In this document: positions 10,968 through 37,013 of the stretch, in pieces
Position numbering within the stretch: position 1 is the first letter of the stretch
Layout of the letters: each line of letters begins with the position of its first letter
Assembly: GCF_030867145.1 (NCBI RefSeq)
Contig: NC_134415.1
Location: forward strand, 7,542,417 to 7,606,416
Length of the DNA: 64,000 nt
Source of the DNA: Opisthocomus hoazin
Lineage: Eukaryota > Chordata > Aves > Opisthocomiformes > Opisthocomidae
Direction of reading: 5' to 3'
The notes under the pieces: model-generated
The model's input: only the letters and a program-made list of their open reading frames with translations
Databases searched by the model: none
Told to the model about the DNA's origin: nothing
Position numbers and translations under genes: made by a program

Positions 10968-11030
10968 TATCTGTTTCTGAACTTTATAATGTACACGACT
11001 GTTTGTAAAGTCATCAAAATTGTGTGGATT

Positions 11031-14431: not shown

Positions 14432-14579
14432 AATGATCGTGATCCTCGCTTGAGAGAGAGAGCAGTTGCCAGACATTCCCTGTCACACCAGTACGGCAAG
14501 AGCCTTCCCAGAGTTCAAAGGAAGCTGGCTGTAGAGAGAGCCAAGCCTTATCGTTTGCCTTCATCGGCCTTAACAGAAG
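14432..14579 (+). pseudogene. AHCTF1: Third copy of ELYS exon 13 (NDRDP exon) in the spacer
   Basis: 148 nt with intact splice sites, reading [20 protein letters not shown] and [18 protein letters not shown]. It keeps [10 protein letters not shown], the family state, where both units have PC(F/L). It therefore branches before the C substitution shared by copies 1 and 2. Intron homology to the units starts near 14350. Confidence 0.88.
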
Positions 14580-14664
14580 GTAATTTTTAAGGGGGGACCA
14601 TGATGGGCAACTAATCATCACTTTGATGACCCCAGGCTGATATATTTTCCCTCTTGCTTCACAG

Positions 14665-14815
14665 TCGTACGACCAAAGTCATTATCAACCATAACAAAGC
14701 AAGCTAATGCAGAACGTGTGCGTAAAAGTGCAACTTTGATCAGCAGTGTGTTGTCCAAAATCAGAGAAGTACAGGTAGCAAATGAGCAGAAGACCAGTTT
14801 CTAACCATATGACAG
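14665..14815 (+). pseudogene. AHCTF1: Third copy of ELYS exon 14 in the spacer, with a stop
   Basis: 151 nt, VVRPKSLSTITKQANAERVR, then SSVLSKIREVQVANEQK. An in-frame TAA at 14802-14804 ends it, where the units read TTC TCG. The middle differs strongly from copies 1 and 2, so it is an older duplicate. Homology to the units' intron ends near 14850. Confidence 0.85.
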
Positions 14816-16652: not shown

Positions 16653-16920
16653 TTCTGGAAGGCTCTCTCTGCCGTGTGATTGGTGGGGCTGGTGTCCCGC
16701 GGCAACGCTTCGTTACCTCCGGTCTCCCTCTGCGAGGAAGGCTGCGTGTGTGCGCTGCGCTGAGACCCTTCGCACCTGCGTCTGTCCCAGTGCCATCTTT
16801 TAAGGAAAAGCTGTGTAGGAGGTTATTGACTGCACACTGATGAAACTTCTGTCAATGTCAAAAACCTTTATGGCTGCTGTGAGCCCATTTTTGTGTTTTT
16901 TTCTTTCTTTACAGTGAAGA

Positions 16921-17041
16921 ATGCAAGGCCTAACAGATCGGGTATCCAGCAGCCTGCTGCAGTTTCCAGAGGCGACTGTTCAGGCCCTTGGGGACGATGA
17001 GAACACCCCACGTTCTGTGCTGCGTGGGAATCTTTTTAGAG
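16921..17041 (+). CDS. AHCTF1: ELYS exon 1 (first coding exon), copy 2
   Basis: The acceptor is at 16911-16914 and the exon starts at 16915. The ATG at 16921 opens [18 protein letters not shown], which resembles the start of vertebrate ELYS (M-x-L-x-x-V-[TS]-S). It continues [18 protein letters not shown], matching the family's TLQALGEDE..SVLRG. The donor GTGAGC is at 17042 and the exon ends in phase 1. The start is chosen because homology begins exactly at this methionine, as in mammals, where the start also sits just inside an internal exon. A non-coding first exon must lie upstream. Confidence 0.85.
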
Positions 17042-20000
17042 GTGAGCGTTTTCCCATAAACTTGGTCTTGGTATGAAGTTGTCATTGCCTGGAGGTTACC
17101 TGCAGCATCGGGTCGTAGTATCAGCTGTGTCAGGTTGGTGCAGTTAAGGTGACTCCCCAGGTTTAGAGAGAGCAGAAATGGTGTTTTATCGATTATAAAT
17201 GCCAATATTAAAACTTGAGTATAGTTAAACTTTGAAATTACAAGCACCTGCACCAGTCTTGTGCTATTCAAAGAATTTCCGTGAACACGCAAAGTCAGTG
17301 AGCCCTCCTCAATTTCTGATGAAATAAAAGGCAGTTTTTGCAAAAGTACGAGTGTTGTTTGGGGCCGTTTTCATTTGCACCGTCAAGCTCTGTGACCATG
17401 ATAGCATCGCAGGCAGAAATCATTCTACGGCAATGTTCCAGAGGCAAACCCCTTTGCTCTTTCTTTTCTGGTCTGAATAGAAACAGGAGGAAGGGGACAA
17501 GGCTGTTGAGCGCTGCAGCCGTATTTCCAAAGTATTTACTAGGGTGCTGATGAGTACGCAGTGCGAGCTGCTGACAGTGGCTAAGCAGATGAGGTAGTTG
17601 CCTTTCTAGGCTATCTGAAAGTGGAGCTGGGTGCTTGTCTGGATGTCTTGGCTTCTTTTAAGACCAGGTAGAATCTGTCTACCTGGCTGGAAATGCAGGA
17701 CTCGAGTTAATACTTCCTTTGAGCTTGAAGGAGTTGAGCACAAAGGAATGTGTAAACATCCCATGTAGAAGTGTAAATTTCCGAACACAGTGCCCATTCT
17801 AAGGTCTGAAGCCCAAATCCCTGCCAAAGCAGGCATGCGTCAAGTACAATTAATAAACTAGAAATGGATTGGCTTAGAGTTGTTCTACTGGAAGTACACT
17901 GCAAGGCTTGTATTCCCATACGCATCTAGATGACTTCTAGCAAAACTAGAAACAAAACAAAGCTGCAGATGGTAGAAAGAGTTTAGATCAATGTATTGTC
18001 ATCTTTATCCCAGACAGTCAAGTGGAAAATAATAAGGTTGTTGATTTTAAGATGTATGGCTTGAGAATTTCAATGGGTGATTTGAAAGAACTGACCGGGA
18101 TTCGGTAAGGCGGTACTTTTATTGAAGGAAAGGGGCAGTGACTGTGATTTTTTCAGTTGTTTCCAATCTTCCGTTGGAAATGTGCTTTAGTCAGCTTCCG
18201 TTTCTCTTACAGGGAGAAATGGGCTAGCATGGCTGGCACGTGGTCCTCATCTTGAGGTAGTGAACTCTGTGACAGGAGAGCGGCTCTCTGCATACCGTTT
18301 CAGGGGGGCAAAGAAGCAGCCTCCCACTGTTCGTGCGGTAAAGGAGTTTTCCTGGCAGAAGAGAACTGGACTGCTGGTTGGGCTGGAAGAAGCAGAGGGA
18401 AGTGTTCTCTGTCTGTACGACCTTGGAATATCACGAGTGGTTAAAGCAGTTGTTCTTCCAGGAAAGGTACGTACTTTTTCATCAGTTGCATGAGGGAGAT
18501 TTTCTATACCACAGAGAAGTGGTTCAGGAGAAACTATGAAGAAGCCTTGGTGGGACAACTCGGTAGTTGTGTGCTGAAGGTTATGAATTCTGGAATAAAG
18601 CCAAAGCTTGTCTGATCTTTTGCTCCTATGCCCTGACTGCTCCTGATTCCAAGCATATTTGGTCTGTTGCTTTCTTTTTGCTACTGGAGAAGTTAGATCA
18701 GCAGAGACAGAGCACAGGTATTGCTGGCTGGACTGTTAACTTCGAAACTGTGAGTGGGAGTAAGCGCAAGAAAAACCAAGCCAACAAAACTTGCACTTAG
18801 CCACTGTCCATATGATCTGAATTTGTCCTCTAACTCTTACTTCCAAAGTAGACAGAACATCATACATATTTTTAATCTGCCCAACTGTTGCTCTGATTTT
18901 CACACGGATTGTTTTTTCAAGTCAAATGCAGATCTGTTCTTCACATCACTTTCTGCACTGTTTGTCATGACTGTTTTAAAGGCTTTAATCAGCACCTGAA
19001 TTTAGGGACTGTTTTCCGTGTGGGTGTGTGTTCTGTGGACAACGAAGTGGTACAGGTTAACGCTAACTTCGAGTACCTCTGGGCCAAGGTGTCAAGCCAT
19101 TAGTCTATTAATACAGGGTATTTCTAGTGACTGTACGACTGCCTTTCGGTCCAAATGTGTTTGAAAGTCCTTGGAGTAGCACAGAAGATTGGAAATTGAA
19201 TTGGATTTCTAGGAAATCTGAAACAAAGACAAGTCGTCTGAGTTACCATAGGTCTTTCTAAAGATTCGAATGCTTGTGAGCAAGAGGAAAGGTCAATTGT
19301 GTGGCAGACTGCCAGGGAGTGTAGCCATAGCAAGTGCTGGATCTGGGAGAGGAGAAACCTTTGGGGCTGAGGACTTTGGTTATTTTTCCCTAGCTGCGGA
19401 GGCAAAAGAAGTGTATATAAAACCATGCACTACCTTGTGATGCTCACTTCTTTCTTTTCTTTTCATGTACAACTTTGTTGGTGGTTATAACTCCCTGTTT
19501 CTGTTGTGTTGCATTTTGTAAGCAGGCGAAAGGATAGCCCGTGTTCTTTTGTTGTATGGCTTTAGTGCAGGAGTCTTCAGGTGCTTGTCTCTCTGCTCTA
19601 GCAGTCAGTGTTGTCCTGGGATGTGTTGCAGGTGCTGGCAGGTCTGCCTTTGCTTTGTCGTAAAGCCGCATGCAGAGCGCTTTGCGTGTTCAAGAGCGGT
19701 GTGCACGTCTCCCTTAGCTGGAGCTGGCTTTTCCCCTAACACGCTGCTGTTCTCTTTGCCATTGCTTTAGGCTGGCTTTTTAAATTTTGGTTCACATTCC
19801 TAGACGTGCTGGTGTGCATTTAAAACTGCTTCTACTTTATCGGGTGGTTATTTTCATTCTAAGTGAGGACTAGTGTACGGTTTACCAAGCCGCTGTCTCC
19901 CGTCAACACTTTCCAGAAGTGTTTCATTCGCATGGAAGTGGTGCGTCTGCCGTGCAACTCAGCCGCTGCCTCGCCTGACGTACAGCCACGATTCATCCTA

Positions 20001-23000
20001 AGAGCTATTTGGCAAAGAAGGCATAGACGGTACCACAGAGCTGATGGGCTGTGAGCAGTGGGAGAACTCGATTTACTTTTATCCTTCAGTCCCTTCAACA
20101 TGATCGAGTTTCTTGCATATGACTAATTTTTTCTGTTTTCTTGGAGTTCGTTATTTCTAAGCAGGTGATGGACGTTGGTAGGCCGTAATACTAGAATGCA
20201 GCATTGAAGTTAATTCAGTGAAATAACCACAGGAAATCTAGTAAATGGAAGGCAGCAACAGATTTTTGTACAGGCCTCCCGCCCCCCGTCCCTCTCTTTT
20301 TGATGTGATTGGGAAACAATGCTCTTTTTGAAGTCTTATGATCCTGTGTTTACTTTCTTGTTTGTGACGTGCTAATTCTGCCTTCACCTTGGAGTGATTT
20401 CTATTTAGCTTGTCAAAGAGCTTCACTGTTAACTTGTAGTTTTCCTGTAGGTAACTGCTATAGAACCCATCACTAGTCACGGAGGACCCAGTGTGAGCTC
20501 TCAGCACCTTCACCAGAGTCTGCAATGGCTCTCTGGAGTGGCAGCAGTGGCTACAGATGTTGGTCATCTGCTTCTGGTTGACCTTTGTTTGGATGATTTA
20601 TATTACAAACAGAATGAGCTAGAAGCATTGGGTAAGCTTGCAGTTTTCAAACTTGCGTTTAACAGTAAGACAAGGTGTGTCTTTGCAATAAACAATATGC
20701 ATCCCACTTTGAAGGCAGGAGCGTGCAGCCATTCGCGACTACTCGTTACAGACGGTGGGCTGTCATCGTGCAGTCCTGAACTGACGAAAACGGGAGTGGC
20801 TGAACACTCCTTCTAATGCCGTAAGCGCCTCCCTGCTGCCAAGATCCCTCCGTCACGACGATTCTTGCCAGTGAGGTGTAGAAGTTTTACCGTGTGTGTC
20901 AGTGCAGCTGCCTGATAGGCGGTTGTGTCAGAGGTGCCCTATTTCTCAGGAAAGTTCTGCTGCTTCTGTTAATTGAGTTGGGGCAAATTTTAGGCTTGTT
21001 TTTTAAAATAGATCTGACTTCTCAAAAATCGTGCCTTTGGACGAATAACTTCAAATAGCTTCATCAGGAGGCCCAAACTCCTGATTTACAGAGTCCAAGA
21101 AGAATTTGCTATGAAGGTTAGACTTTTACCTGGTTTTGAAATAGGAGTGAGAATACCTGTCCGATCGGAGAGTTCTTCTGCTCTTTGAAGAGGTCCAAAA
21201 TGGAAGTGGCAAAGAAGTGTTGCATCAGTGGGTATTTTGCCTGGGATGGTAGAATGAGATTCTACGTGTTGTCATGTCAGTGTTTAGCATGCAATGTAAA
21301 TGGCATAACACATTCCTTTGTTGTGTGGTTCTGTGTGCATAGATCTAGAAGTTTTCACTAGAATTCCTGCTGAAGTTCCACAGAGAAGAGCAGCTGTGAC
21401 CGGAGAAGGGAGACATCTCTCTTTCCAACTACAAAATCCTTCAGGATCAGCAATATCAACCCTGCACTACATCAGCAGAAGCAATCAGCTCGTTGTGGGT
21501 TTTTCAGATGGCTACCTGTCCCTATGGAACATGAAAACATTGAAGAGGGAGTAAGTAGGCCTTTACACTTGGCCATGCCTGGAGGTGCAGAGGTCTGTTT
21601 GTAGCTGTTGTAAATTTGTTTGGAAGATATGTTGCATTTTAAATTCAATATTTATGTACGCTACAAGAATAGCAAGAACCTTTTTGCTTGGCAACTGAAG
21701 GGATCAGTTATGTTGCATATCCTCAGGCAGAGGAGGACATAAATCCAGGTTATTGTGTTAGATAGGCAGTAATTTCCTCACCTCTTGACTGTTGCCTAAA
21801 ATGTAGTAGCTACCTTGACTCACTTGTTTGAGATGGAAGTCTGACTGTCTGTTCGTTGAGGATAAGCATGTAAGGTGCTGTTTTCTCAGGAGATGCTTTG
21901 ACAATTCTACAAACAGTAGGGTCACCTTTTCTATTTTTTCTCTTTTTTTTTTTTTCTTAACTCTGTAGGCACCACTCTCAGCTTGAAGGAGGAAGGATTC
22001 CTGTCTATGCTGTCACGTTTCAAGAGCCTGAGAACGATCCTCGCAATCGTTGCTACTTGTGGGCTGTTCAGTCTACACAAGAAAGGTGAATACAAACTTA
22101 CTATGAGTCACTGTTGTGGTTTTTTTAAATGTTTCTTCACATACAGATGATACATGTGCGTTTGTTTTGTTTCTTTAGTTGTGCAGGAGATTCTCTCGGG
22201 TATGTAATGTGTTACGATGCAATGTTTACAGGATTGACCAGACATGAAGGGTGAGCTGATAGTTTGTGCCTTGTGGAAGAAGGCAAAGCAACAGTGGCTG
22301 TATTAGTTTGTGCTTGCCTTCTTCATGGCTTTCCTTTGTTTCTTGATGACTGCTTCATGATCTGTTTGATATTTGCACCATGGTATTAAAATAGCATTAG
22401 ATCGCCGTTCAGCAGAAGAGTCAGTGGTTTCCTGCTGGGCTAATGAATGGAATTAGTGTGTGGAAGGGCTCGGTGTATGCAAGAGAGGGACTGGAACTTG
22501 CTGGGAAGGGAAGGAAGAAGAGGAGAAAGATCTCTCTCTCCTTCAGCATCAGCAAGCTATTGAATCAGCTCAGCCATTCGTAGAGTGACAATCTTTTAAA
22601 GTTTGACTTTAAAGCAGTTTTGATCAAGACCTCTCCACCGTGAAGAGCAAGTTCCAATAATGTTGAGTTCATGCAAGAGGTTAAGGCTTTCAAATTGCAT
22701 GGTTAGCATTTGCCCCTGCAGCTGTTAGTGTCAACACTGCCTTCTTCATGTTTCAGTGGCTAAATGTGACCAATTACCAGGTTGTGGGAAGCGGTGTTTT
22801 TCTTTTCAGCAAGAGCCTACTATGAAGAAGTGAAAATGAGGACTATAAAGCAGCTCTATAATCAAATGTCATCGTTTATACCTTTTTCAGTGAAGGTGAT
22901 GTTGTGAGCTTGCATCTGTTGCAGTTAGCATTTGGTGACAGAAAACGCTTGGCATCAGGACAAGTCATGTATGAGGTAAGACGTGCATGTATGTGAAAAG

Positions 23001-26000
23001 ACGAAAAGAGTCAGTGAGTAGCAGTTAAAGTGTCAGGGCAAATCTTTACCATTAAAATTCAGAGATGCCTAGCAAGAAAAAATAATCTTTGGCTGAGTCT
23101 TCTTGGGCATGGCCTTTGTCCTTTCCTAAAATACGGTCCTATATCTTTTGTTTTATATTCTTGTTTTTCTTTTGCGCTCTCTTAACTGGACTTCTGATGA
23201 AATGTACCTGCAGTGTCTCTTCAGTGTTGATCCTGAAACTTAGTTGCTATAAAGATAGCTCGTTCTACTTTTTGGCTGGGTTACCTACGACATCTACTCT
23301 TAAAGCCAGCAAGAGAAGTCAAGACAGCACACAGTGGTATGACTTGGTCTAAAGAGGATACATAAATTTTTAGAACCGGCTCCAAAAATGTTGTGTTTAA
23401 AATAGAGAGGAGGTATCATTATATCTCAGCTGTCAAACAGATTGAAGATGCATCTGTGTAACGTCTGATTCCATTCAGTAATATGCTTGAAACTCTTCCA
23501 AAATCAGTCAGAGCAATTCTTTCCTCCTGTTTTTATACTTTCTCTTGCATAGTTTCAGTAGGTACGGAACGAAATAGGGGTGATTCTTGTATCATGGTCC
23601 TCTGTTTTTTTAGGGACTATGCGTTGTTTTATTTCTTGGGATGAGATGAAGTTTTGACCTTGGTCATCGCATATAGGACAGGTCTTTCCTCATTTGTAAA
23701 TGTTGCTTTTGAATAGAGAAAGGTTGGTGTTTGGAAAAGGTGGTGTTTCTTTAAAAGGCATTGTCTCTCAGGGCACCAAGGTGTAAATATCTTCAAGTGA
23801 TTCCGCAGGTTCTAAATATGGATGTCATCTCTTTATGGGCATTTTTTTTCTGACCTAAATATACAGTGCTCTGGAGGCACGGAGCAGCCTGACTGGCTTT
23901 TTAGTTGTAAAAGGGCTTTCGTTGCAGTGCACTTCTGCATCTCTTGTAGTGCCCTATAAGCCCTGTGGCAGGTTGATAGGAGAAAGTGCCTTTAATACTT
24001 CTTCAGTTTCATTTTTGAACTTCTGCTTTGGTTTATCCTCTTTCAAAAGTTCTTTGTGAGTACAGTCTTCGCAGTGGCCAAGACAAGACCTTGTAGTGCG
24101 GGCTGCTTTGCAAGAAACACCCAGTTGCCTATAGCCATTCCTCTCGTGGCTATTTTATTCTGTCTTGACACTTTCATGTTAAAATGTGGGACCTTTTCCT
24201 ACTTGGCAGTTCTTTGCCCTGGTCATCTTCCTTTCCTGAACAAGATGTGCCGAGTGTCAGTTTTCACCTCTGAGGGCTGAAATGTTTCAGCAGCTTTTAA
24301 ATGTGGGTCTGCTAGAAATTCGACTTGACGCTCTTTTAGAAAGGCACCCAAAGTGATTAAATGAGGTTCTTGTGTTTGTGACCGGCGACAGCGGTGGGGT
24401 GGTTAATGGAAGACTTTCAACCCTCTGCAGACTGCGCAACCAGTAATACATTGCCAGGCTTCTAGGAGGTGTGAGGCACCAGTCTCTGCATTTGGGATAT
24501 TTTTACTCCCCTGCTGTTTCTGCTTCCCTGTGAGGAGCGTTGTGGAAGATGGAACCAGGAACCAATCTTACAAGGTGTTGCAAGGAAGAACTGAACAGCC
24601 AGGCCCTCTGTGGAGAAAAGACAGGTTCTTCAGCCACCTTCCAAATATACTACAGCAGCGCTTTACATTCCAGGAATCAGACTTGTGGCTATGAAACAGG
24701 GCATCTTTGACTTTGTATCGCAGTAATAAGTCACAAACAGGACTTGTGGAACACATGGCACAAATGAGCGTCAACTGTTGCTTTCAAGGCTGTTGTAAGT
24801 CTGTGCTCAAGTGATTAGCCTAACAGTGTATTTATGATCTGCTTTCAAAGACCTTTTTTGCACCATCTCAGCAGTTGCTAAACGTAGTGCATTGAATTGT
24901 CGAGCTGCTATTTGTCCACAATACACACATTCCTGCGTTGCATGGTAGACAGTTTGAACGAATCCTGTATTTGGAAAGCCAGTATTTCAGTTAATGCTTA
25001 CTTAGAAAATGGTGGTATCAGAGGCGTAACACAGTCCTGCCAGGGTTTGTGTACATCTCAAAGTAGTTGGCTGGCTCTGTAGTAATTTGTGATGGTAAAG
25101 TCATAGTCTGTGTGCATTGCACGTCCTCTCTGTTTTCCCCTGGTGCTGTTGGCTGTGCTTGGTGAAGGAGCTGGGGGATATTTCACCTGTTAGTCTCTGA
25201 CAAGATTAGAGGAGGAGGTGGTAAGAGTTTACATGGTTTGAAAGAAGACGGTTAATCAGTCAGCAGTTCTCATAGCTACTAGAGAGGGATGCGTTTTCAG
25301 TGTAGCGGTGTGCCTATAGGTAATACCTCTCGACAGAGCTTTAGGTGCAGTAATGGCATGACTTCTCTAATTTGGTCAGTTCTGTAATGAAGACATGCAG
25401 CGTAGATCTCCCAGCTCTGGGAAATTCAGGATTGGTTTTGTAAATTTTGCATTATTTCTCCTATTATTAATACTATCAGTATTAGTAGTGTGATTAATAA
25501 AACTTTTCATATTCAATTTGTAAGTCTCTCTCCCTTTTCCTCCTTTACCCTTCCTCTGGTGGGAGGGTGAGGTGTTAATAGAGCGTCTGCCACTGAGTTT
25601 GTTGCCGCCCTGCTTGAAGTGGTGACATGGAGTTTCTCTTTGCCATCAGAAGTAAGCTCGTGGGGAATATACAATATAGTAAACATGTTCTATTAGATAG
25701 ATGCATTCTTTGCTATTTCAGTATACTGTATGTTCGTACCTCAACTGGCCCTTTCCTCTCTTCTTTTATTTTGTCCGCAGGGTTTGGAATACTGTGGCGA
25801 AAAGTACAGTTTAGATCTCGCGGATGGAGTCCTTCCCTTGAGAGGGCAGACCAGCAATATCAAGCTACTCAGCTGTCAGACTGTAGAAAAATTTTGCAAC
25901 CACGTTAATGGAGACGAAAGCGTTAATGAAGGTGTGTTGTGATGTCCATGTGTGGCTATTCTAAAAGAAATGGTTTTGGAATCTAAGCAATGAATGCTGT

Positions 26001-29000
26001 TCTGTACCCGAGTCCAAAAGTCTTAAATATCAGTAGAGACATGCTTGTTTGGGTTATTGAAAAAGAAAAATCGGGTGCTTAAGTTGTGTGTGACTTCTTT
26101 AAAGGAAAAAAATAGGTTTTCTTGTATGCTGGCTGACAGGCTATAGCGATGTATGGTGGGGTCATCTGTATAATGCTGGTCAGTCGTTTTATTCCTCCAG
26201 CTGTCATCTCTGAAGCATGAGAGAACTCCCTCCTTTGCTTAGGAACGCTACCTGAATTTTTTTTTCCCTGTTCAAACAGGGCAGCTAGTTACAAGTGGTG
26301 TTCCTCAGGGCTCAGTATCAGGGCCAGTTCTGTTTAATATCTCTGTCAGTTGTCTGGACGAGGGGATCGAGTGCACCCTCAGTGAGTTTGTAGAAGACAC
26401 TAAGGTGCGTGGGAATGTTGATGTACTTGAGGGTAGGGAGGCTCTACAGAGGGGTCTGGACAGGCTGGATCTATAGGCTGAGGCCATTGCATGAGATTCA
26501 ACACAGCCAAGTGCCGGGTCGTGCGCTTAGGTCACAACAACCGTGTGTAATGCTTCAGGCTTGGGGCAGAGTGTCTGGAAAGCTGCCTGGAGAAAAAGGA
26601 CCTGGGAGTGCTGGTTGAGAGTCGGGTGAGTATGAGCTGGCCGTGCGCCCAGGTGGCCAAGAAGGCCAACGGCCTCCCTGCTTGTAGCAGAAATAGTGTG
26701 GCCAGCAGCAGCAGGGTAGGGATCATCCCCCTGTACTGGGCCCCGGTGAGGCCTCACCTTGAAGAACAGCTTTACTTTAGGCTCCTCACTACAAGAAAGA
26801 CCTTGAGTTGCTGGATCGTGTCCAAAGAAGAGCAGCAAGGAAGCTGTTTAAGCATTGGAACAGGCTGCCCAGGGAAGTGGTTGAGACACCATCCCTGGCA
26901 GTATTGAAAAGATGTGTAGAGGTGGTGCTTAAGGGCATGGTCTGGTGGTGGACTTGGCAGGGTTAGGTTTACGGCAGGGCTCGATGATCTTCAGGGTCTT
27001 TTCCAGCCTAAATAATTCTATGATCTACCTGTCCATTTTTTCCTCTCTAAATCTAATAGGTTCCTACACCTGCAAGTTTTGAAAGCGATAGCTTTCCTTG
27101 TCCACATAGACAGTCAAAACTCTGGTGGTGTCTTTCATTATGTTGCAATAATTAAATACGTATCTCTGGGTTTAAAAATTTGATTCTGCTCTGACCATAT
27201 CTTTGAGCCTGCTGCAGTGGTGGCTTTCACAGCCTTTTGTTCTGACTGCATTCTTCACCTTCTGTCTCTCCTTACTGGCCTTACCTTCTGCCTGACATTG
27301 TAAAGAAGACACTTGCATGGTGTTTCTAGGCTATTTCTGTTCATTAGGGTTGATTTAGTCCTGAACTGGCAACTTCCGTCTCTTTTGTGATGCCATCCTT
27401 GATCAACAGCGTGTCAAAATCGAATTAAAACACCTCTGGATTTTCTCCACTCGTGTCATGTTTCTGAGGAGAGTGCCTTCCAATGGCTTGTTAAAACCAA
27501 CCAAGCAACCAACCATCACTCTGCCACCCCTCAAAAATGCCCCGAACAAGACAAGAACCAAAACCCCCTTTCTGTCTCCTTTTTATGAAGCAGGTGGCGT
27601 GGAGAAATATCTGCAACTTTTCTGGTGGTTTCTAATCAGCTTTTATTCAGAATCTGTTGAAGTGAAGTTCTAGGCACACGTGAGCTTGTGTTGGATGTGG
27701 GTTGAGGCTAGCAGTGACGCTGTCTTCTGAATGGTGAAAAGAATGGATAGCTTGCTAGGCAGTTTCAGTGGCTAAGATAACGCAAGTGACGCAGGAGTTC
27801 ACAAGGAAACACGGGAAAGTGGGTGAGGATCCCTAAAAGGTACTGATGAATTCAACAGAGAGCAGAGAAACGTTTTGCCAAGCAAAGTGTCGTCGTCTTC
27901 CCTACTCCGTTAGGGTAAATGATGTACCACACGCTGTGCTTCCATCTCGAGAAAGCGTTCTCCCCAGAGAAGACAGACCGTTCCGCTTCTCGAGAGAACA
28001 GGAGTACAATATCGTGGATGTTTTGTGTGAAAACCTTGATCCCGATTTCCTGTTTGTTGAGTTTGGGTTTTTTCTGTTTCTTTTGTGTGATACTTGTCGT
28101 CTTTCATTCCGAATATGCTGGCAAGGAGCTATCCTTAAAATCATAATGGAGTCAGATCTGGAACTTCATAATGCCAGCTGAGTGATACAAGTGTGTCCGA
28201 TAATCATCTGTATGCTTTCTAAAAGTAGCAATGTATGTGTTCCAAGCATACTTTGTTTTGCCAAACTGGTCATCTAGCTAAGGGTCTCTTGATCAACCCT
28301 TCATGTATGGAAAACTTCAGCAGCTAATAATTGTGTGTTGGCTTTGGCTTGGAACCGATGCAGTCTGCACAAGAAAAAGGGGCAGTATGACTGGAACTTA
28401 TCACAGAGATGTTTGCTAGTCCGTAATTTTGTTTTCATTAATCTTTTTAATTACAAAACGATTTCATGATTTAACTTATCTTAGGAATCGCAGTGTTTCA
28501 CGAGTGGTAAAAGAGAACGAAGCCAAGCCAGAAAGTGGTGTTTTAAAATGATAAGCTATCTCCTATTTTCTACCTCTAAGAAACAATGTCTTGTCTTTTA
28601 CAGTAATATCTCCTGAAACCAGTGTATCAATCTTCAGCTGGCAAGTGAATACGGCTGGTCAGGGAAAACCATCGACTTATTTGTGTGTGTTTGACATTAA
28701 TTGCTGGTATCATGCTCAAATGCCAGAATCACTAAGGTAGATTTTTTATGGAGTTGTTTTCCATACCCCTACAAAGAAGTCATTTGAAAGTTGGCGTGTA
28801 GCTTATGCACCTGCTTTCTTGAAGGCCAGAAGAATTCCTTGATGACTGCCCCTATTTTGCGCTGTGGTCACCGGATCCTGTAATAAGCATGACGTCTCCA
28901 AACCTCATTTTGGATGTTCTGGTACACAAGCGGAGTCTAAGACGGGGAGTTTCACCTTCTTGTCTGCCACCTGAGCATTTTTTTCGTCCAAGCACCTATA

Positions 29001-32000
29001 ATTTTGGTAGGTATTTCACTGCTTTTAATAGTGGTGAGCTTCAGTGGAGGTCAGGTGCCATTTAGTGGTTCTCATGTTCATTGTTTGTCACTCAAAAGGC
29101 AAACCAAAACCCAGCAACCCTCCCCCCTCCCCCAAGCCAACTCTGATTATGTTGTAGTGAGAAGGTATTTAATATTGTGAAACCTGTCTGGGAGTCTGCT
29201 GAGTTTTGGCGTTTGGTGCTTTTGTAATGTAGCCTGTGAAGTGGGGATGGTGATAAAATGAAATGACTTTGAACTGAAGCTCAAAGCGCAGCACCTCCAC
29301 AGAACTAGAGATGAAATTTCCTCAAGCAGTAATGATTTTTTTGGACAAGTTTGGAAGTGATCTGATGAAGCAAATGGGTGCTCAGTTCTAGCTTTCCAGA
29401 TGCTGCGATTTCAAACATGTAAACTGGCCATGACATAACAGTGAGAGTACGGAAGGTTGTCAAACGTTCATTGTTTCTGCAGATGGGATGTGCTTGCTGA
29501 GCTCCGGAGTTGTTCACGTGACTTGCACCGGCTTCCAGAAGGAGGTGATCTTTTCCTGTGTCTTTCTGGAGAATGTCAAGAGATGTGCCTTTTCTGGGTT
29601 TTCTATTGCACTCCTTTCAGTGCCAGAGAGCATTGTCTGCTCGTCCTGCCCATACGCACGCATAATTGCAGCTATATGCCTCCGGTTTGATGCAAATGGT
29701 AATGTTTTATGCCAGTATTTCTGGCATAAATCAGCTTCTGCACAAACAAGCATGGAAAGGGTCTTCTAAATTGTGATTTCAAGTTGTGTGTTAGTTTTAG
29801 CTTTTCTAGAGTGTAGTTTATGCCAATGCTGAGGGAAAAAGAAAGGCCTGCGTATTGACAGAGAAGCTAGGAGATACTTAATAAAGCATTGCAAGGGCTG
29901 ATGTTTGGTGTTAAGGGACTTTCTTTGATAAACTGTAGCTGTTACTTTGGCTGCCTGCACTGTGTGAGACTCTAGGCAGCAATGCTTACTCAGATTGCTA
30001 ACCTGAAGCGTATTACTGATGCAAACTTTCTGACAAGTGTGACAAGTGTGAGTGAACACCTACATTCTTTCTCTTAGTGGTTCTCCAGAACCTGCATGAT
30101 TAAATAAAATGGTTGTCCTAACCTGTATTTTGACTGATGTTTCAGACCTTGAATTTTTTAAAGAAATCTGGTCCTGCAATAAGCAAAGCCATTCTTGGGA
30201 GCTACAATAGGTGCCTTGTACCTGGCTTGCTGTCTCCAACACCGATGGATGTCGTGCCATCCAGCTTGAGTCAGGTGAGTGCGTATCAGGGAGTCAAGGG
30301 GGAGCTACATCCGTCTAGTCTGAGAGGGCCATAGAGGCTACGAGACATGGTCATCTGATTTTCATCTTCTTTTCCAGTTGCTTTGAAATGCAGGTGTTGA
30401 CTTAACTTAGCAGAAGTAGTAGTAGTCTTAGATCCAAACTACGGAGTTTGACTGGGAACAGCCCTGCCAGAGCTGTCTTTAGAGACCCGTCTGTTAGTTC
30501 TGTGCCACAGGTCCACACAAGGAAGCGTGCAGTCAGTGCTGGTCATGCGCAATCGAAAGCATCTTTCCCTCAGAACAACCTCCCACCCCGTCAGGTTCTC
30601 AAAGAGTTCAGTTCAGTGCAGTAGCTGACGATGTGGGTGTCTCGGATGCATGCGAGCTATTGCAAACAGGAGCTTGCTGCAGCTTACGTGATCATTGGCT
30701 TCCAAGGAAGTGGGCTGTGATAAACTATTGTCAGCTCTACCTGACAATTTCATCACCGCTTCCCCTCATGTTTCCTTCATCGGTAGGCTTTTCTGCAGCC
30801 CCTCAAAGCAGGCCTTCACCTCTGTCGCCTTTGCCTTGTGCTGCATTGGCCCCATTGGCTCCTCTTAGAGAACCTGCTGCCGTTCTGTGCAGTGGACGTG
30901 TTCCACTATACCTGTTGAGGACATTTCTTCACTACTTAGAAATAGCACAGTTAGTTCTGTGCAATGAAATTCCTGGAATTAGTTAACTTTTTGCTTTGCG
31001 CTTTTGCTTCACCAGAATGATCGTGATCCTTGCTTGAGAGAGACAGCAGTTGCCAGACATTCCCTGTCACACCAGTACGGCAAGAGCCTTCCCAGAGTTC
31101 AAAGGAAGCTGGCTGTAGAGAGAGCCAAGTCTTATCGTTTGCCTTCATCGGCCTTAACAGAAGGTAATTTTTAGGGGGGACCATGACGGGCAACTAACCA
31201 TCACTTGGATGACCCCAGGCTGATATATTTTCACTCTTGCTTTACAGTCGTACAACCAAAGCCTTTATCAACCATAACAAAACAAGACAATGGAGGAAAA
31301 CTGCATTCAGTGGTAACTTTGATCAGGAACATGTTGTCCAAAATCAGAGAAGTACTGGTAGGAAATGAGCAGAAAACCAGGTTCTCGCACTGTGATAGGT
31401 AAGCCGCCTTTTAACACAGTTCAGTCTTGAGCTACGTGTTTGGAGAGAGAGAGGAAAATCCATTTGAATTAGGTTAGTGTTTTGGAGGGCAGGTGCACCT
31501 GAATAAAGCTTTGTTTGGCTTTTTTTTGCACATACAATATATGACACTTAAGAATCAAGACGTCATAAGTAATATGTGTCGAGAGAGACTTTTTCTGCTG
31601 TGATAACCGAATTGATGCAAATACATGTATTTGCATTGTGGTGACTGAGTTTACCGAATTTCAGCTAGCTGCAACTAAACCTATGATTACCCTCCAGCTG
31701 TTGGTGTATGAATTTTGACAGGCTGGACTGTGTGATCAAATAGCAACCTTACACCACTTCCTGCCCAGTTTCTGCCTCGTTTCTGCCCTTTTGCAGTTCG
31801 AAATAGGCAGAATTTTAAAGAGCGGAAAAGAGCCTCATAGTTGTCTGATGATTTTCCTACAGGTGGTACAGTGAAAGAAACTCGACCTTAATTTCTATTT
31901 TCTGTGCATGCTCAATTAGGACCTGTTTGTTTATGGAAAGGGAAGCAGCTTTCTCACCGGATATTTTAAAAGCTGCAGCAGCTTAGTGATAAAGACAGAG

Positions 32001-35000
32001 AGGGATCGTAACGAAATCACCATTGATTTGAAGTGGTAACAAATACTGGGACAGACTTTTGTTGAGTTCGTTCACAACCTCCAACGTAGCAATTGCTCTC
32101 TGTCTACAGAAGACTAATAACAGATTGTTCTTTAAGAGAGCTCTGTTGTTATGTTGTTATGTAGTGTTGGATAGCTGGGCAGAATGTGAAGCCCTTGATT
32201 CATTGCATAATGGGAGCCACAACTTGGAGGTAGATATGCTGGTAAAGGACTTCCTAATTGTTCTTAGTTCTTTCTGTTTTGAAACTTGAAGATTTCACAG
32301 TGAGCAAGTAATCGGTAGAGCTCCTCCAGGTTTGTTGTGCAGCTTGATGATGAATTTTTCTCGTTCTGTTGATGAAGTGAAACAAACCACCAGGAGTCCA
32401 AAATGTCCTCTTCAGAAAATGGCCTTAAGGGGAAGTGTGTGCGTTCATCTGAAGAACGTAATCGAGGAGCAGCTGAAGTTGAAGGAAATGTTCCTTTTCC
32501 CCAGGAAGAAACAACTGCTTCTAACAATCTTCCTACAACAGAGGAAAGTAGGGTAAGTGAACTATTTTCCCATCTTCTACAAAAACGAAAACACTTTGCC
32601 AGTTGAGGACACTCCTGTCTTACCGATAGTTAGAAGGCACACAAAATCATCTGAGATTTTTTTAGCTGCTTAACACAAGTTCAAACCTCATTACGTAAGG
32701 GCAGATTTTCTTTTTTTTTTTTTTTACGTTTTTCTGCTGTGCGCTTTCTGTACCTCGAACACACAGAGTAGAAGCTGCCAAGATCTGGGCCTCTGAGAGC
32801 TGTAGTAGTACAAGAAAAGCGCCTGCACTATTTTTGAAAATAACCGTGCATTCATTTGGTTTACTAGAACTTGAACATTTCTTATTTGACTTAAAAAAGA
32901 AATAGTTTTAACGCTAAAGATAGTAAGCTATGTTGGGGAGTGCAGCTTGTCGAACTTGGGTGGCATTTGCCAAAGGAGAAAATGCTGAGGGAAGCAAACT
33001 CATTGTCAGAATGATTTAGGTGCTTAGGTCCTTTACTGTTTGTTCCTCATTAACATAAACACAACTCCCAGTTATGAGTTAATTTCAGTGTCAAGATATT
33101 TCCAGATACCTAACACACTTTACTGAAACTGCTGTCAAGGATGAAGAGATGCAGCCTAGGGACGAGCTCCTTTTACCTGTGCCATCTAAAAGAGGCAGAA
33201 GAAGACCACCGAGTTCATCAGAAGTGTCAGAAAATGCTGACCTGCGTCTGTCTAAATCAGCGCTTCCTCAACCCGAAGTGACGCTTCCTGTCACTCCTAG
33301 AGGAAATGCTAGGAAGAGGGCACAAAATCTCTTGGCGGCAGACACAGAAGCCGTCTCTGCTCAGGATGGCTTCCGTTCATGTGGGAAGGTGGAAATCTCT
33401 CCTCCTCTGACAAAGCTGAGAAAGAAATGTAAAGGTAGGGGCACTATGTTTATATGCAAAGTGGGGCACAATGCGTTTTTTTGTAAGCCACAGAAAACGG
33501 ACTGTGGGGTTGGCTTTAAGTATTGTAAAGAATGTAGCCATGCAACATAAAAAATTTGTAAGAGGCAATTCAGCTTTTTCCCTAACTCTACGTGACTGGC
33601 TGGCTAGCTGCGATGGAAGCAGAGGATGAGGTTCATCTGAGTAGAGTGAATGGAATTTTGAGCTGGTTTTTTTTCATGACCATGATTTCTGTCAGTTTTG
33701 AAAACTGGAGGTTATCTGTTAGTATGTGATTGCCATCCCAACAGAGAGATAAAGGAGGCACGCTTCCAAATTCTGCTTGGTTTGTAAGTTAAGATGAGCT
33801 GCATCTTACAACAAACTATAGAGCTGTTTAATTATGTGATTGTTTTTCATGGGCATGTACTTCGTAGGTGAAGTTACTGCTCATAGGATTCTTTTTATTT
33901 GAGTACATGATCAAAAAATGTTTTTGAGATGTGTGGGGACTGTTGCTGCCTCTTGAGCAGAAGAGCTTTGATCATGTAAGTGCAGGTAAAAATCACTCCA
34001 GTGGCTTACTTCTGTTTCACAATTTACTTGAAAAGAATGGATCCCAAGAGGCAGTTATGGGGGAGAAATACCTCCACACCGAGCGTTTATAAACATGATT
34101 GGACCTTTTATTTCAGCAAGCTATTGTGCTCTTGATGATCAGCTTTCATTTCTCATCGCTGTCCTTTGTGTATATTGCACGTGCATGTTAACAATACGTT
34201 GTCATTTTAGGTGGAAAAGCAGCCCATCCTGTGCAGCCTAAGGATTTAGACCCGGACTTGTCTGTTCAGTTTGTCTTTTCACCCCGTCTTTTGAGGTCAA
34301 GGAGAACAAATGTACCTAGCGTTTCCCGAATTGTGAAGGAACCGGTAAGTAAAAGCTCTAGTTGTCTCATGTTCTTGATTTTTGCTCGGTACTGCTTTTG
34401 GAAACCATACTTTGCAATGCCTTGCCTTTTTCCTTGGAAGTATAACTAAAAAGGGAGCTCTAAAGTAATCAGCTAAAGAATTTATTTTCTTTCATGAAAA
34501 CTAGCTATAAAAGGAAGTTTTGTGTCTGTGTTAGTCAAGAATTAAGAACTACGGCTTTGCCTTTCACAAAAGACACAGTGGCTTTCTTTCAACTTACTTG
34601 ATGCGTTTTCTGCTCATTTCAGAATTTGAACTTTTAGGATGGTAGAGTAAGTTGAGATGGAAGGTTTGTTTTCTGTGGAGAGAAACTGTAGTGCTTTGGG
34701 AAATAACTTTGGCATGACTTCTTCATGTAAGAAAGGTGCCGTTGTATTTTGTAGAAATGTCAGAACTTGTGGATGAGTGACGTTTCTGTTTCCTTAACAT
34801 AGGAGCTTCCAACTAAAGAGGAAGAGGATTCCAAATCTATGGAGTCTGTGGGAAAGCAAAAATTGAAGCGAGGTAGAACTGCAAAATCAAAAAAGAAGAA
34901 AGCAAGCAAGTACGAAATTCTTTTTGAACACCTCTGTGCATTCCTTTATTGTGGTAGTGATTCGGCTGTTAGCCACCTAACTTCCTCACTTGGCTGTGCA

Positions 35001-35669
35001 GTTCTGCTCTGACTTTACAAGCCTGTCGAGCTTCCTGGTCTGATAGAGACCTGTTTCCCCACTTAACGGTTTAGTTTTCTGATGGAAACAGAAGAGGGAG
35101 GGGGCAGAAAAGGGCAAGTGGGTACTGCTTTTTTCAAGGATGGCGTGCCCTTGTATTGTCTTATTCCGCCTGATGAAACCACGCTCCTACGGTCTTTAGT
35201 TCCCCATAGAAGGCAGGAGGGGGTCAGAGAATGGGTAGAGAGAGCTTCTTGTTTCCGGACATGTTTTCTGGTTCCTTGTGGAGCACTGTTTGAGGGTGTT
35301 TGCCTCTTGAAAGCTGGGAGAGGGGGCTCTAAAAGCCCATAGGAATAGTGACTGAGAATGCTTGGGACAGTCTGGTAAGGAATGAAAAAGGAAGCTTATT
35401 TATGTACCTTTTTTGCCTTGACCATATGTACAAAGAAGCCCAGAAATACTTCTTTGGCATTGATTTTGTTATTCCACGGGGGTTTTGTTGTTCTCTACTA
35501 AATACTGTTGGTACTAACAAACCAATTTGATATGTGCAAAGAAGCCCATAAATAATTCTTCGGCAGTGATTTTGTCATTCCACGGGGTTTTTTTTCCTCT
35601 ACTAAATACTGTTGGTACTAAAAAATCAGTTTGATACTTCCCTTTCTTTACAGAACCACAAGAAAATAA
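16921..35669 (+). CDS. AHCTF1: AHCTF1/ELYS-like gene, copy 2, lacking the central helical domain (spliced, 18 coding exons)
   Basis: ELYS is a nucleoporin that binds nucleosomes and recruits the Nup107-160 complex during nuclear pore assembly. Coding exons: 16921-17041, 18213-18466, 20451-20631, 21343-21550, 21969-22085, (cassette 22179-22250), 22891-22975, 25781-25931, 28604-28736, 28825-29006, 29483-29544, 30146-30274, 31016-31163, 31248-31398, 32301-32552, 33106-33434, 34211-34344, 34803-34909, 35654-35669. All have AG/GT borders and matching phases. They total 2760 nt, about 919 residues without the cassette. Residues 1 to about 541 are the whole beta-propeller (Pfam ELYS-bb). The rest is the basic, low-complexity tail. 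The helical ELYS domain is missing, and vertebrate ELYS is normally over 2200 residues. The frame is open, but the normal C-terminus is lost, so a recent pseudogene is possible. Expression cannot be judged from DNA. Confidence 0.8.
18213..18466 (+). CDS. AHCTF1: ELYS exon 2, copy 2 (beta-propeller)
   Basis: 254 nt, phase 1 in and phase 0 out. It encodes [20 protein letters not shown], then [20 protein letters not shown] and [12 protein letters not shown], all nearly identical to vertebrate ELYS blade 1-2 sequence. The polypyrimidine acceptor is at 18201-18212 and the donor GTACGT at 18467. There is no internal stop. Confidence 0.92.
20451..20631 (+). CDS. AHCTF1: ELYS exon 3, copy 2 (beta-propeller)
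   Basis: 181 nt, phase 0 in and phase 1 out. It reads [12 protein letters not shown], then [20 protein letters not shown] and [11 protein letters not shown], matching the ELYS segment in which propeller strands alternate with a conserved VDLCLDDL. The donor is GTAAGC at 20632. Confidence 0.92.
21343..21550 (+). CDS. AHCTF1: ELYS exon 4, copy 2 (beta-propeller)
   Basis: 208 nt, phase 1 in and phase 2 out. It contains [13 protein letters not shown], then [19 protein letters not shown], and [20 protein letters not shown] with a WD-like strand end ([13 protein letters not shown]). This is the clearest propeller blade in the window. The donor is GTAAGT at 21551. Confidence 0.93.
21969..22085 (+). 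CDS. AHCTF1: ELYS exon 5, copy 2 (beta-propeller)
   Basis: 117 nt, phase 2 in and phase 2 out. It encodes [20 protein letters not shown] followed by [12 protein letters not shown], the ELYS signature [18 protein letters not shown]-rich acceptor lies directly upstream and the donor is GTGAAT at 22086. Confidence 0.93.
22179..22250 (+). CDS. AHCTF1: Candidate frame-preserving cassette exon (exon 6) of the ELYS-like gene
   Basis: 72 nt (exactly 24 codons) between an acceptor ending at 22178 (TTTCTTTAG) and a strong donor GTGAGC at 22251. Both sides are phase 2, so including or skipping it leaves the frame unchanged. It reads [15 protein letters not shown] and then [10 protein letters not shown] do not recall this stretch in the mammalian ELYS main isoform, where STQ(E/D)S is followed directly by EGDV. 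It may be a bird-specific or minor-isoform exon. Confidence 0.55.
22891..22975 (+). CDS. AHCTF1: ELYS exon 7, copy 2 (beta-propeller)
   Basis: 85 nt, phase 2 in and phase 0 out. It encodes [20 protein letters not shown] and then ASGQVMYE, matching [18 protein letters not shown] of vertebrate ELYS. Acceptor TTTTTCAG and donor GTAAGA. It is the last exon before the part of the unit whose partner is visible in copy 1. Confidence 0.92.
25781..25931 (+). CDS. AHCTF1: ELYS exon 8, copy 2 (beta-propeller)
   Basis: 151 nt, phase 0 in and phase 1 out. It encodes [20 protein letters not shown], then [18 protein letters not shown], the ELYS segment [21 protein letters not shown]. The sequence of this exon is identical in both copies by eye. 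Acceptor TTGTCCGCAG, donor GTGTGT at 25932. Confidence 0.93.
26279..27023 (+). mobile_element. CR1 LINE, 5'-truncated (intron 8, copy 2)
   Basis: Partner of 1398-2142 with a handful of base changes. Same truncation point and same tail, so it was copied with the unit rather than inserted independently. Confidence 0.93.
28604..28736 (+). CDS. AHCTF1: ELYS exon 9, copy 2 (beta-propeller)
   Basis: 133 nt, phase 1 in and phase 2 out. It reads [15 protein letters not shown], then [20 protein letters not shown] and QMPESLR, close to ELYS SPDTSVSVFTWQVN...FDINRWYHAQMP. Copy 2 keeps the family histidine in WYHAQMP, where copy 1 has arginine, but has I where copy 1 keeps V in VSVFSW. Confidence 0.92.
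28825..29006 (+). CDS. AHCTF1: ELYS exon 10, copy 2 (beta-propeller)
   Basis: 182 nt, phase 2 in and phase 1 out. It encodes [20 protein letters not shown], then [27 protein letters not shown] and PSTYNF, matching ELYS ..YFALWS..ILDILVHERSLNRGV..PPEQFFNPSTYNF. I place the acceptor at 28823-28824 because that phase joins exon 9 without a stop and matches the family spacing. Confidence 0.9.
29483..29544 (+). CDS. AHCTF1: ELYS exon 11, copy 2 (beta-propeller)
   Basis: 62 nt, phase 1 in and phase 0 out. It encodes [19 protein letters not shown], matching [22 protein letters not shown]. Copy 2 keeps CTGFQKE, where copy 1 reads CIVFQKE. The donor GTGATC is weaker than average but shared by both copies. 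Confidence 0.9.
30146..30274 (+). CDS. AHCTF1: ELYS exon 12, copy 2 (end of the beta-propeller)
   Basis: 129 nt, phase 0 in and phase 0 out. It encodes [18 protein letters not shown], then [15 protein letters not shown] and [10 protein letters not shown], matching TLTFLKKSGP..GYNRCLVAGLLSP..PSSLSQ. In normal ELYS the next exon starts the alpha-helical domain. Here the next recognisable exon is the NDRDP exon, only 741 bp away. Confidence 0.92.
30382..30624 (+). other. Intron 12 open stretch, copy 2, interrupted
   Basis: Partner of 5501-5743. The fifth codon after the ATG at 30388 is a TAA stop (30403-30405), from TTA in copy 1. The rest stays open to TAG. No function assigned. Confidence 0.3.
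31016..31163 (+). CDS. AHCTF1: ELYS exon 13 (NDRDP exon), copy 2
   Basis: 148 nt, phase 0 in and phase 1 out. It encodes [20 protein letters not shown], then [19 protein letters not shown], matching [40 protein letters not shown], which normally follows the helical domain. Copy 2 has lost the arginine of RER (now RET) and the proline of AKPY (now AKSY). Copy 1 and the relic at 14432 retain both. Donor GTAATT. Confidence 0.9.
31248..31398 (+). CDS. AHCTF1: ELYS exon 14, copy 2
   Basis: 151 nt, phase 1 in and phase 2 out. It encodes [18 protein letters not shown] and later [20 protein letters not shown], resembling ELYS SRPKPLSAVPKQ...NNVLSKIGEV. The arginine of VRPK in copy 1 is Q here. Acceptor CTTTACAG, donor GTAAGC. 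Confidence 0.85.
32301..32552 (+). CDS. AHCTF1: ELYS-like exon 15, copy 2 (open in two frames)
   Basis: 252 nt. Spliced from exon 14 in phase 2 it reads [20 protein letters not shown], then [20 protein letters not shown], and stays open to the donor GTAAGT at 32553, giving the phase exon 16 needs. The second half in another frame reads [18 protein letters not shown] and [17 protein letters not shown]. That is acidic and serine-rich like genuine ELYS tail, so an old frameshift near 32385-32403 is likely. The NFSRSVDEV stretch may correspond to ELYS NVSQVDDV. Assignment is moderate. Confidence 0.6.
33106..33434 (+). CDS. AHCTF1: ELYS exon 16, copy 2 (basic tail, AT-hook-like)
   Basis: 329 nt, phase 2 in and phase 1 out, the largest exon found. 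It encodes [20 protein letters not shown], then [20 protein letters not shown] and [12 protein letters not shown]. The KRGRRRP stretch resembles the AT-hook-like basic clusters (RRGRRKK, KRGRPRK) in the disordered ELYS tail, which contact DNA. By eye the protein is the same as in copy 1. Donor GTAGGG at 33435. Confidence 0.75.
34211..34344 (+). CDS. AHCTF1: ELYS exon 17, copy 2
   Basis: 134 nt, phase 1 in and phase 0 out. It encodes [20 protein letters not shown] and then [14 protein letters not shown], matching the ELYS tail segment LVSDLSSQFVISPPALRSRQ. The donor is a strong GTAAGT at 34345. Confidence 0.88.
34803..34909 (+). CDS. AHCTF1: ELYS exon 18, copy 2
   Basis: 107 nt, phase 0 in and phase 2 out. 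It encodes [20 protein letters not shown] followed by a lysine-rich run, matching ELYS DDAQSVETLGKPKAKRIRTSK. The donor GTACGA at 34910 leaves AA hanging. With exon 19 this makes K-T-T-R-K and then a stop. Confidence 0.85.
35426..35636 (+). repeat. 106-bp tandem duplication in the last intron, copy 2
   Basis: Partner of 10545-10755, with units starting at 35426 and 35532. It lies just upstream of the exon 19 acceptor. Confidence 0.88.
35654..35669 (+). CDS. AHCTF1: Start of ELYS terminal exon 19 with early stop, copy 2
   Basis: After the acceptor TTTACAG (35647-35653) the in-phase reading is T-T-R-K and then TAA at 35667-35669. The exon DNA itself continues for about 200 nt with recognisable but frame-broken ELYS C-terminal coding sequence. 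The same stop is present in copy 1, so it predates the duplication. Confidence 0.7.
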
Positions 35670-35848
35670 GGTTCTTGGTCACCTCCACTCAACGGAAATA
35701 ACATTTGTCTTCCATTAAAATTGGAAGTCCAGTGGATGGAACAAAAAGCAAACAGAAAGAAGATGCAGACATGGCAGAGAAGACTCTACGGAAGAACAAA
35801 AAAAGACTGTCTAATTTTCCAAAGCCAGTTGTGCGCTGGAAGATGCTC
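35670..35848 (+). pseudogene. AHCTF1: Relic of the conserved ELYS C-terminus, out of frame, copy 2
   Basis: Beyond the early stop, three different frames each show part of the ELYS C-terminus. A frame with W-S-P-P around 35681 recalls ELYS WSPPP. A frame from 35705 reads SSIKIGSPVDGTKSK, then LRKNKKRLSNFPKPVVRWKM, matching ASPADGVKSK...RNRKKLSSYPKQILRRKML. At least two indels are needed to explain the switches. In copy 2 the RRKML end reads RWKML. The normal stop after ML is absent: the frame runs on through YLFLNF to 35947. Confidence 0.8.
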
Positions 35849-35911
35849 TATCTGTTTCTGAACTTTATAATGTACACAACTGTTTGTAAAGTCATCAAAA
35901 TTGTGTGGATT

Positions 35912-35917
35912 AATAAA
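35912..35917 (+). promoter_or_regulatory. Candidate poly(A) signal, copy 2
   Basis: AATAAA in the same place as in copy 1, inside the A-rich stretch after the relic C-terminus. It fits a short 3' UTR for the ELYS-like transcript. Confidence 0.4.
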
Positions 35918-37013
35918 AAGAAAAAAAATGTAATTTGTAAGAGATAATTTATATAAATTATTGTAAAATTTCATAAACAAATGGTCTCAATAAGTAACTC
36001 CATATGGAGTGTGATTTCCTTATTCTCTGCAGTTTTCTATTTTATATTAAGAGTTCTTACATTTATATAATATGTAAATACAGCTTATTTTAGGAATGTT
36101 CAATACAAATGTGTAATTCATGGTGTGCTTAATGTCTGACGGCTTTTTGAGGGAATAGTGGGTTGAGTGGCCTGTATTGCTTAGAAATTATGCTGTTGGT
36201 TTACAAGAGTTGCTGACCCTCAGAAGTAAAGCCAAAAGCTTTTGAAGCTTTTTAAAAGTTTGCGTAGAATTTCTATAACAAGCCAAAATTTAAAACAAAC
36301 TACTTCCAGTTTTATAAATGATGTTGGACCTTCTGGCACAAAGAACTGGGCTGATGATACAACCTGGTCATTCCTCACATTCACGGTTAAGTTGTACTAG
36401 GCTGAAGTCAGACTGTAAACAGTTGTCTTTGTGGCTGTGCAATATTTCTTTGTATTTGTCTTAAACTTTGGGAAAGCTGCTCCTTAGTTCATAAAACTCG
36501 ATCACACCTCAGATGTTTCACTATTTTTTACAGTTTGTTGTCAGCAAAAATGAAGCGTAGAGAGGGTGTGATGCTTAGAATAAGATCTCAAATTTAAAGG
36601 GATATTACCCACATACTTTGAAATTTGAGCCAAAATGATTGCCATAAGGTTACTAGGAATGCTACTCTAGTTGAAGTAGTTCTTGTCTGCAATACTGGAA
36701 GGCTGCATATCACAGCACTGAAAACCTGATGGTAAAGCTCACGCAGCAGTCTGAACAAGGTACAAAAATGTACAGAAATCTTAGTTACAAACCATATTTT
36801 TGAGTAATTATTTCTTTAATAATCTGGGGTTATGGAGTAAATGTCCTTATAAAGCTTCAATCTGTCAAAATAAATTCAAAAAATCTATTGTTTTAACAAT
36901 GGACATGGAAGTACCATTTTGATGTGCAGTCTTTTAGACTATGGATTATTTTTATGTATGTTAATTTATGTATGGATGCAGCTTTGAAGACTACAGAATG
37001 GTGGAACCTGACA
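35918..37013 (+). other. 3' flank of the ELYS-like gene, copy 2
   Basis: AT-rich sequence after the candidate poly(A) signal, shared with 11037-12132. It contains further AATAAA-like motifs and no recognised gene. The duplication ends at 37013. Confidence 0.6.

Follow-up and report, generated by a model that had tools for sequence, protein, structure and literature searches.

Does an open frame that joins the propeller of ELYS directly to its chromatin tail still encode a protein under selection, or is it a young relic that has not yet had time to close? ELYS, the product of AHCTF1, initiates the assembly of nuclear pores on post-mitotic chromatin, and a preliminary description of a 64,000-nucleotide stretch of hoazin DNA (Opisthocomus hoazin, contig NC_134415.1, hereafter C2, positions 7,542,417 to 7,606,416; hereafter the window) had noted such a 'mini-ELYS' frame at window positions 16921-35669. 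We find that this gene, with near certainty, closes a tandem array of nine copies of an ELYS (AHCTF1) paralog lacking the helical domain. The evidence favours, by a narrow margin over even odds (roughly 0.52), a weakly constrained, fast-evolving family that is still coding; that its protein is both translated and functional we consider about an even bet, slightly favoured.

Nine tandem copies of a shortened ELYS gene

Re-deriving the exon chain from the sequence gave 18 coding exons on the plus strand, all introns being GT-AG, and a single open frame of 899 codons from the ATG at 16921 to a TAA stop ending at 35669. Both end points agree exactly with the preliminary description, as do the canonical splicing, the matching phases and the count of 18 exons, while its length of about 919 codons did not hold. 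The propeller is encoded by E1 (16921-17041), E2 (18213-18466), E3 (20451-20631), E4 (21343-21550), E5 (21969-22085), E6 (22891-22975), E7 (25781-25931), E8 (28604-28736), E9 (28825-29006), E10 (29483-29544) and E11 (30146-30274), which ends in PSSLSQ with phase 0 out. A 741-bp intron at the helical-domain deletion (30275-31015), running from phase 0 to phase 0, leads to the NDRDP exon E12 (31016-31163, phase 0 in), and this junction was recovered just as it had been described. It is followed by E13 (31248-31398), E14 (32378-32552), E15 (33089-33434) and the tail exons E16 (34211-34344), E17 (34803-34909) and E18 (35654-35669). Adding a 72-bp in-phase candidate exon, E5b (22179-22250), would raise the gene to 19 exons and 923 codons; E5b is open in this copy and in two of four other hoazin ELYS loci (P and S, below), but gaps and a stop alter it in the remaining two (Q and R) and the public hoazin model P0001 leaves it out, so that it is probably not an exon.

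The predicted protein of this ninth copy matches the Pfam family ELYS-bb (PF16687) over residues 1-489, with all 489 profile positions covered at 851.8 bits, and PDB entry 4i0o over residues 1-494, whereas the helical domain PF13934 gave no Pfam match at E values up to 1, bearing out the earlier claim of a complete propeller with the helical domain lost in frame. Full-length human and frog ELYS chains align to the propeller and then to the NDRDP region, such that human residue 979 comes directly after the propeller end near 540. The closest protein match is a 'protein ELYS-like' from Opisthocomus hoazin (P0001, 95%).

A genome search with propeller exon 2 located nine copies about 24.9 kb apart at C2 7.36-7.56 Mb and at least four more at C2 13.39-13.54 Mb, counts that are lower bounds since 87 of 116 candidates were scored. 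On examination of the array DNA, every exon could be located in nine units, and in all nine copies the coding sequence (CDS) measures 2700 nt, with one terminal stop, no coding insertions or deletions (indels) and canonical splice sites. Given a full-profile ELYS-bb match and a frame and splice sites kept in 9/9 copies, the gene is more than a product of chance; the preliminary description was right that it exists, and it proves to be one of nine copies. The repeat unit is about 24.9 kb long (25.65 kb in unit 3) and units differ pairwise by 0.15-1.22%, which at an avian substitution rate of about 2e-9 per site per year corresponds to up to about 3 million years. Within the window, unit 9, the last of the array, spans 12133-37013 (C2:7554549-7579429, plus strand) and is preceded by the 3' part of unit 8 (1-12132, plus strand), whose mini-ELYS exons E7-E18 lie at 899-10788; window positions 1-12132 duplicate 24883-37013 at 98.9%.

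Unit 9 also holds an extra ELYS tail fragment upstream of the gene (14039-14815, plus strand), made up of an AKVL exon (14039-14236) and second versions of the two exons after the junction, E12' (14432-14579) and E13' (14665-14815, with a stop near its end), both of which occur in all nine units; E12 and E13 themselves were picked by dropping matches to E12' and E13' with an identity cut-off. The window repeat, this fragment and the incompleteness of the tail described below were absent from the preliminary description. The differences of E13 in units 1, 2 and 8 partly resemble E13', a likeness that suggests gene conversion inside the unit. Model P0001 is identical to array copy 8 across its first 640 residues, shares the E14 acceptor, uses a different E15 acceptor and continues into the exons of the next unit.

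Origin of the deletion and of the shortened tail

Four other hoazin loci carry E1-E11, P and Q on the plus strand and R and S on the minus strand. Locus P shares the helical deletion of the array and is collinear with it at 91% (1003/1102 bases) across the junction, so that the deletion is older than the array; P probably also owns the tail exons at 13415718-13422372. Locus S looks like a full-length AHCTF1, since its last exon is intact and its giant tail exon stays open over 664 codons, and locus R is identical over 541 residues to P0003, a protein that carries the helical domain. In a propeller protein tree of P, Q, R, S and four of the nine array copies, from which the chimeric penguin model P0002 was left out, the hoazin copies group together (support 98), and within this group P, Q, R and the array are united to the exclusion of S (97). 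Concerted evolution could distort the tree: despite the deletion that P and the array have in common, the P propeller lies nearer to those of Q and R than to that of the array.

We compared the array tail with that of locus S. The first 33-37 nt of E14, which has a weak acceptor (gatgaag), match sequence outside the corresponding exon of S, apparently intron there, and an approximately 780-bp deletion relative to S precedes the E14 start and would have removed the native acceptor. At E15 the array reads ttaatttcag as its acceptor where S reads ttaattttgg; the exon opens with 26-33 nt matching the S intron, rejoins the giant tail exon after the loss of about 390 front codons, and contains a 339-bp in-frame deletion within the giant-exon piece. 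Basic tail pieces are kept, among them a KRGRRRP motif that matches KRGRRRQ in S. The usual AT hook has a GRP core, which both of these motifs lack, and the protein of copy 9 gave no Pfam AT-hook match. Of the earlier picture of a propeller joined to the chromatin-binding tail, the propeller is thus complete and the tail is not, having lost the two segments above and its last 59 codons.

Further ELYS pieces were seen on the same contig. A tail lies on the plus strand at C2:13377580-13379717, upstream of locus P, and is probably one more partial ELYS copy because no propeller match was found before it. At a distance of some 30 Mb from the array, further matches to exons E16 and E17 on both strands (C2:37528700-37560771, 77-84%) mark another rearranged cluster of ELYS fragments. 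The right flank of the array holds 197 open reading frames (ORFs) of at least 55 aa; the four tried there and two others were without a Pfam match at E 0.01, and a search of one tail fragment against phages found nothing. Also right of the array, a repeat that resembles the avian CR1 consensus occurs twice, at 38289-38493 and 40735-40940.

Probable weak constraint on frame and fold

We next asked how often the frame should have been broken under mutation alone, using a mutation spectrum derived from 413 polarised intron changes; codons at which S and P disagree or carry a stop were excluded from the polarised counts, and E12 and E13 from some counts. On the array stem, E1-E11 acquired 73 nonsynonymous and 27 synonymous changes (ratio of nonsynonymous to synonymous rates, omega, 1.01) and no stop, compared with 3.3 expected. 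Within the array, the CDS shows 59 nonsynonymous and 17 synonymous changes (omega 1.30, not significant) and again no stop gained against 2.7-2.9 expected, such that stem and array together hold none of about 6.2 expected. An apparent stop at sites where P, Q, R and S agree was traced to a single-step path at codon 143, where R differs, and is absent from all array copies. Indels follow a similar pattern, with none in the array CDS and 38 outside it, compared with 4.6 expected in the CDS, or 2.7 plus 1.3 once homopolymers are set apart (a split in which 5 of the 38 indel places were set by hand). Between the array and each of P, Q, R and S, E1-E11 differ by no indel and the introns by 30-41, where 5.3-6.8 exonic indels per pair would be expected, about half of them on the array side.

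The positions of the replacements were also uneven. At sites of E1-E11 that are invariant in 21 hand-picked non-bird vertebrate sequences, we counted 17 of 83 polarised replacements, compared with 29.5 expected (P = 0.0022; P = 0.0022-0.0121 across five conservation thresholds). Avoidance was strongest among replacements still varying between copies, only 4 of 30 falling at invariant sites (10.6 expected, P = 0.0065), and the synonymous control showed none (14/35 compared with 11.3 expected). Clustering of replacements was not significant at five window sizes. We read these results, whose numbers are small, as pointing to a weak but ongoing constraint that holds fold and frame and leaves the rest of the protein largely free.

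Omega between the array consensus and P, Q, R and S was 0.74-0.87 by NG86 and 1.07-1.23 by YN00, compared with 0.25-0.28 among P, Q and R and 0.53-0.73 between these three and S. Strong purifying selection on the array is ruled out by an omega near 1. Positive selection is not claimed either: a simple 2:1 transition:transversion model gave an omega of 1.2-1.8, whereas with the intron-derived spectrum it is 1.01 on the stem and 1.30 within the array. The tail differs from S at 33 nonsynonymous and 5 synonymous codons (nonsynonymous rate dN 0.075, synonymous rate dS 0.041), and 33 of 38 is a nonsynonymous excess under that spectrum (P = 0.032). CDS variation within the array exceeds noncoding variation (76/2700 compared with 489/22181, P = 0.047), an excess that may be due in part to gene conversion in E12 and E13, given their likeness to E12' and E13'.

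Several observations weigh against a family that is still coding. Omega is near 1 overall, with a pooled nonsynonymous excess at P = 0.09, and the preliminary description had counted a ratio near 1 as evidence against a gene; the opposite is indicated by the counts of stops, of indels and of replacements at conserved sites. The homopolymer-free indel test reaches only P = 0.065 on its own. The two window copies differ at much the same rate in exons (21/1734) and outside them (99/10397), and the codons concerned are 16 nonsynonymous and 5 synonymous. Among replacements that all nine copies have in common, avoidance of invariant sites is only weak (13/53 compared with 18.8, P = 0.06), and the R, P and S branches show no significant avoidance (7/23, 4/17 and 5/19), a test low in power because these branches have few changes. 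Furthermore, the stop and indel counts are post hoc, since the frame was picked as open and ends by definition at its first stop. The DNA itself adds two points: a TAA in E18 replaces the CAA of S and is followed by frameshifting indels, so that 59 codons are missing from the end, and upstream DNA common to P, Q, R and S is absent from the array unit, in which homology to these four loci starts only at 16789, 132 bp before the ATG (16789-16920, plus strand).

These points are largely what would be expected of a young, untranscribed pseudogene array, that is, tandem copies cut from their promoter and open for lack of time, an explanation to which the stop at codon 2 of the sister locus P also lends weight, as does a divergence of exons from the other loci that is about as large as that of introns. 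Upstream CpG-rich stretches, albeit weak (e.g. 15593-16012: 420 bp, GC 0.56, CpG ratio 0.67), make a local promoter possible. A dead array would, however, have been expected to collect stops and coding indels, and E1-E17 carry no frame-disabling mutation in any of nine copies; nor does it account for invariant sites being avoided by recent changes as well, with a clean synonymous control. We therefore regard the pseudogene array as a serious alternative, though the less probable of the two.

Alternatively, the signals of constraint could be left over from a time when the sequence was a fuller ELYS-like gene, the array itself being dead. Part of the stem predates the tail deletions, and P, Q and R differ among themselves at a low omega. 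Avoidance is strongest, however, among the changes still varying between copies, which makes this account improbable. An assembly artefact, whether haplotypic or false tandem duplication or helical exons simply missing, is very improbable: one assembly was examined, but its nine copies bear distinct differences rather than forming two near-identical haplotypes, the array DNA is free of N, and the same junction recurs at the independent locus P, which rules out an assembly gap as the source of the missing helical exons, in line with what the preliminary description had supposed.

Relatives in other birds and known systems

A pattern scan of 184 retrieved proteins found the helical-less junction in five, all predicted: P0001 (hoazin), P0125, P0130 and P0153 (Humboldt penguin) and P0039 (barn owl). 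Like the array, the penguin and owl proteins join the propeller straight to the NDRDP exon, the owl protein from E10 and the penguin proteins with a long tail kept, but they are predictions only, whereas the array junction was read in DNA. P0001, P0039 and P0153, from the same three species, also carry a second NDRDP exon after an AKVL exon, an order that is real in hoazin DNA at 14039-14815. In the propeller tree the hoazin copies (support 98) stand apart from the owl despite this common order, and lineage-specific duplication or homogenisation is possible in the penguin because its two NDRDP blocks are nearly identical. At 90% identity, ELYS-like clusters from several Neoaves contain 63 (P0016), 40 (P0101), 27 (P0034) and 10 (P0039) sequences, sizes that may include isoforms or other species; clusters with so many members suggest a duplication-prone locus, and parallel loss of the helical domain is therefore possible. 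Long branches in the tree lead to ELYS-like proteins of gull, cormorant, takahe, owl and sandgrouse. Predicted proteins P0002 (penguin) and P0099 (razorbill) have internally repeated propeller exon blocks, which suggests either that exon blocks have been duplicated in the ELYS-like genes of birds or that the models are in error. Among the matches listed in a search of open-licence literature, we found no report of ELYS duplication in birds.

The helical-less form in hoazin, penguin and owl may go back to a common ancestor or to rearrangements that took place in parallel. A bolder view would be that Neoaves possess an unrecognised helical-less ELYS paralog, with propeller joined to chromatin tail, that is old and has been repeatedly rearranged and amplified, the hoazin array being a fast-evolving member in which selection preserves only fold and frame, a pattern expected under genetic conflict over chromosome segregation or the germline; we consider it rather unlikely.

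Under the reading of a weakly constrained, still coding family, the following sequence of events can be proposed. An ELYS duplicate would have lost its helical exons in a phase-keeping way, moved about 6 Mb, been trimmed, and been amplified within the last few million years, with selection holding the frame while most residues drift or change fast. The product, if made, would fold as an ELYS propeller and enter the nucleus via its basic tail; without the helical domain it would not sit stably in the pore and would be active in the nucleoplasm, where it might compete weakly for chromatin or for the contact between Nup160 and the propeller.

Compared with ELYS / AHCTF1 itself (MEL-28 in worms), the array is collinear and shares the PF16687 propeller, the exon phases, the NDRDP region and the basic tail exons, and it differs in lacking the helical domain, much of the giant tail exon, the last 59 codons and the shared upstream DNA, and in having nine copies. 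In C. elegans, MEL-28 proteins with helical deletions (498-956 or 566-778) but with propeller and tail kept are reported to lose pore and kinetochore targeting, stay nucleoplasmic and fail to rescue, and ELYS is required for worm embryo viability (PMC4920428); fly embryos require a maternal ELYS supply (PMC6027884). In frog ELYS, the propeller contacts Nup160, and the helical domain contacts Nup160, Nup37, Nup85, Nup96 and Nup133, making most other Y-complex contacts (PMC8976044), and a last-128-residue fragment binds nucleosomes while neither of its parts alone does so (PMC4920428). By analogy, the array protein is expected to show no stable pore residence or Y-complex recruitment. Considering these worm and frog results and the absence of its last 59 residues, it would likely be nuclear, not pore-resident and in weak contact with chromatin, and competition with ELYS is possible. 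The array offers natural helical-domain deletions, nine in one bird, as a ready set of separation-of-function proteins.

Other bird 'protein ELYS-like' duplicates (P0003 in hoazin, P0008 in penguin, P0016 in gull) are likewise extra AHCTF1 copies, but of the opposite build: they keep PF13934 and end soon after the NDRDP exons, whereas the array lacks PF13934 and keeps tail exons. The array also resembles the nuclear transport genes of fly meiotic drive, of which the truncated RanGAP of Segregation Distorter is an example, in that both are truncated, tandemly duplicated components of nuclear transport. Meiotic drive in flies has been linked to nuclear transport genes that are duplicated and evolve fast (PMC8645118); the resemblance is one of analogy only. 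Even a dead array would be a clear example of pore gene amplification. If it is translated, a core pore component has turned into a rapidly evolving multi-copy gene, and one may ask whether pore genes of birds, like those of flies, are drawn into genetic conflict.

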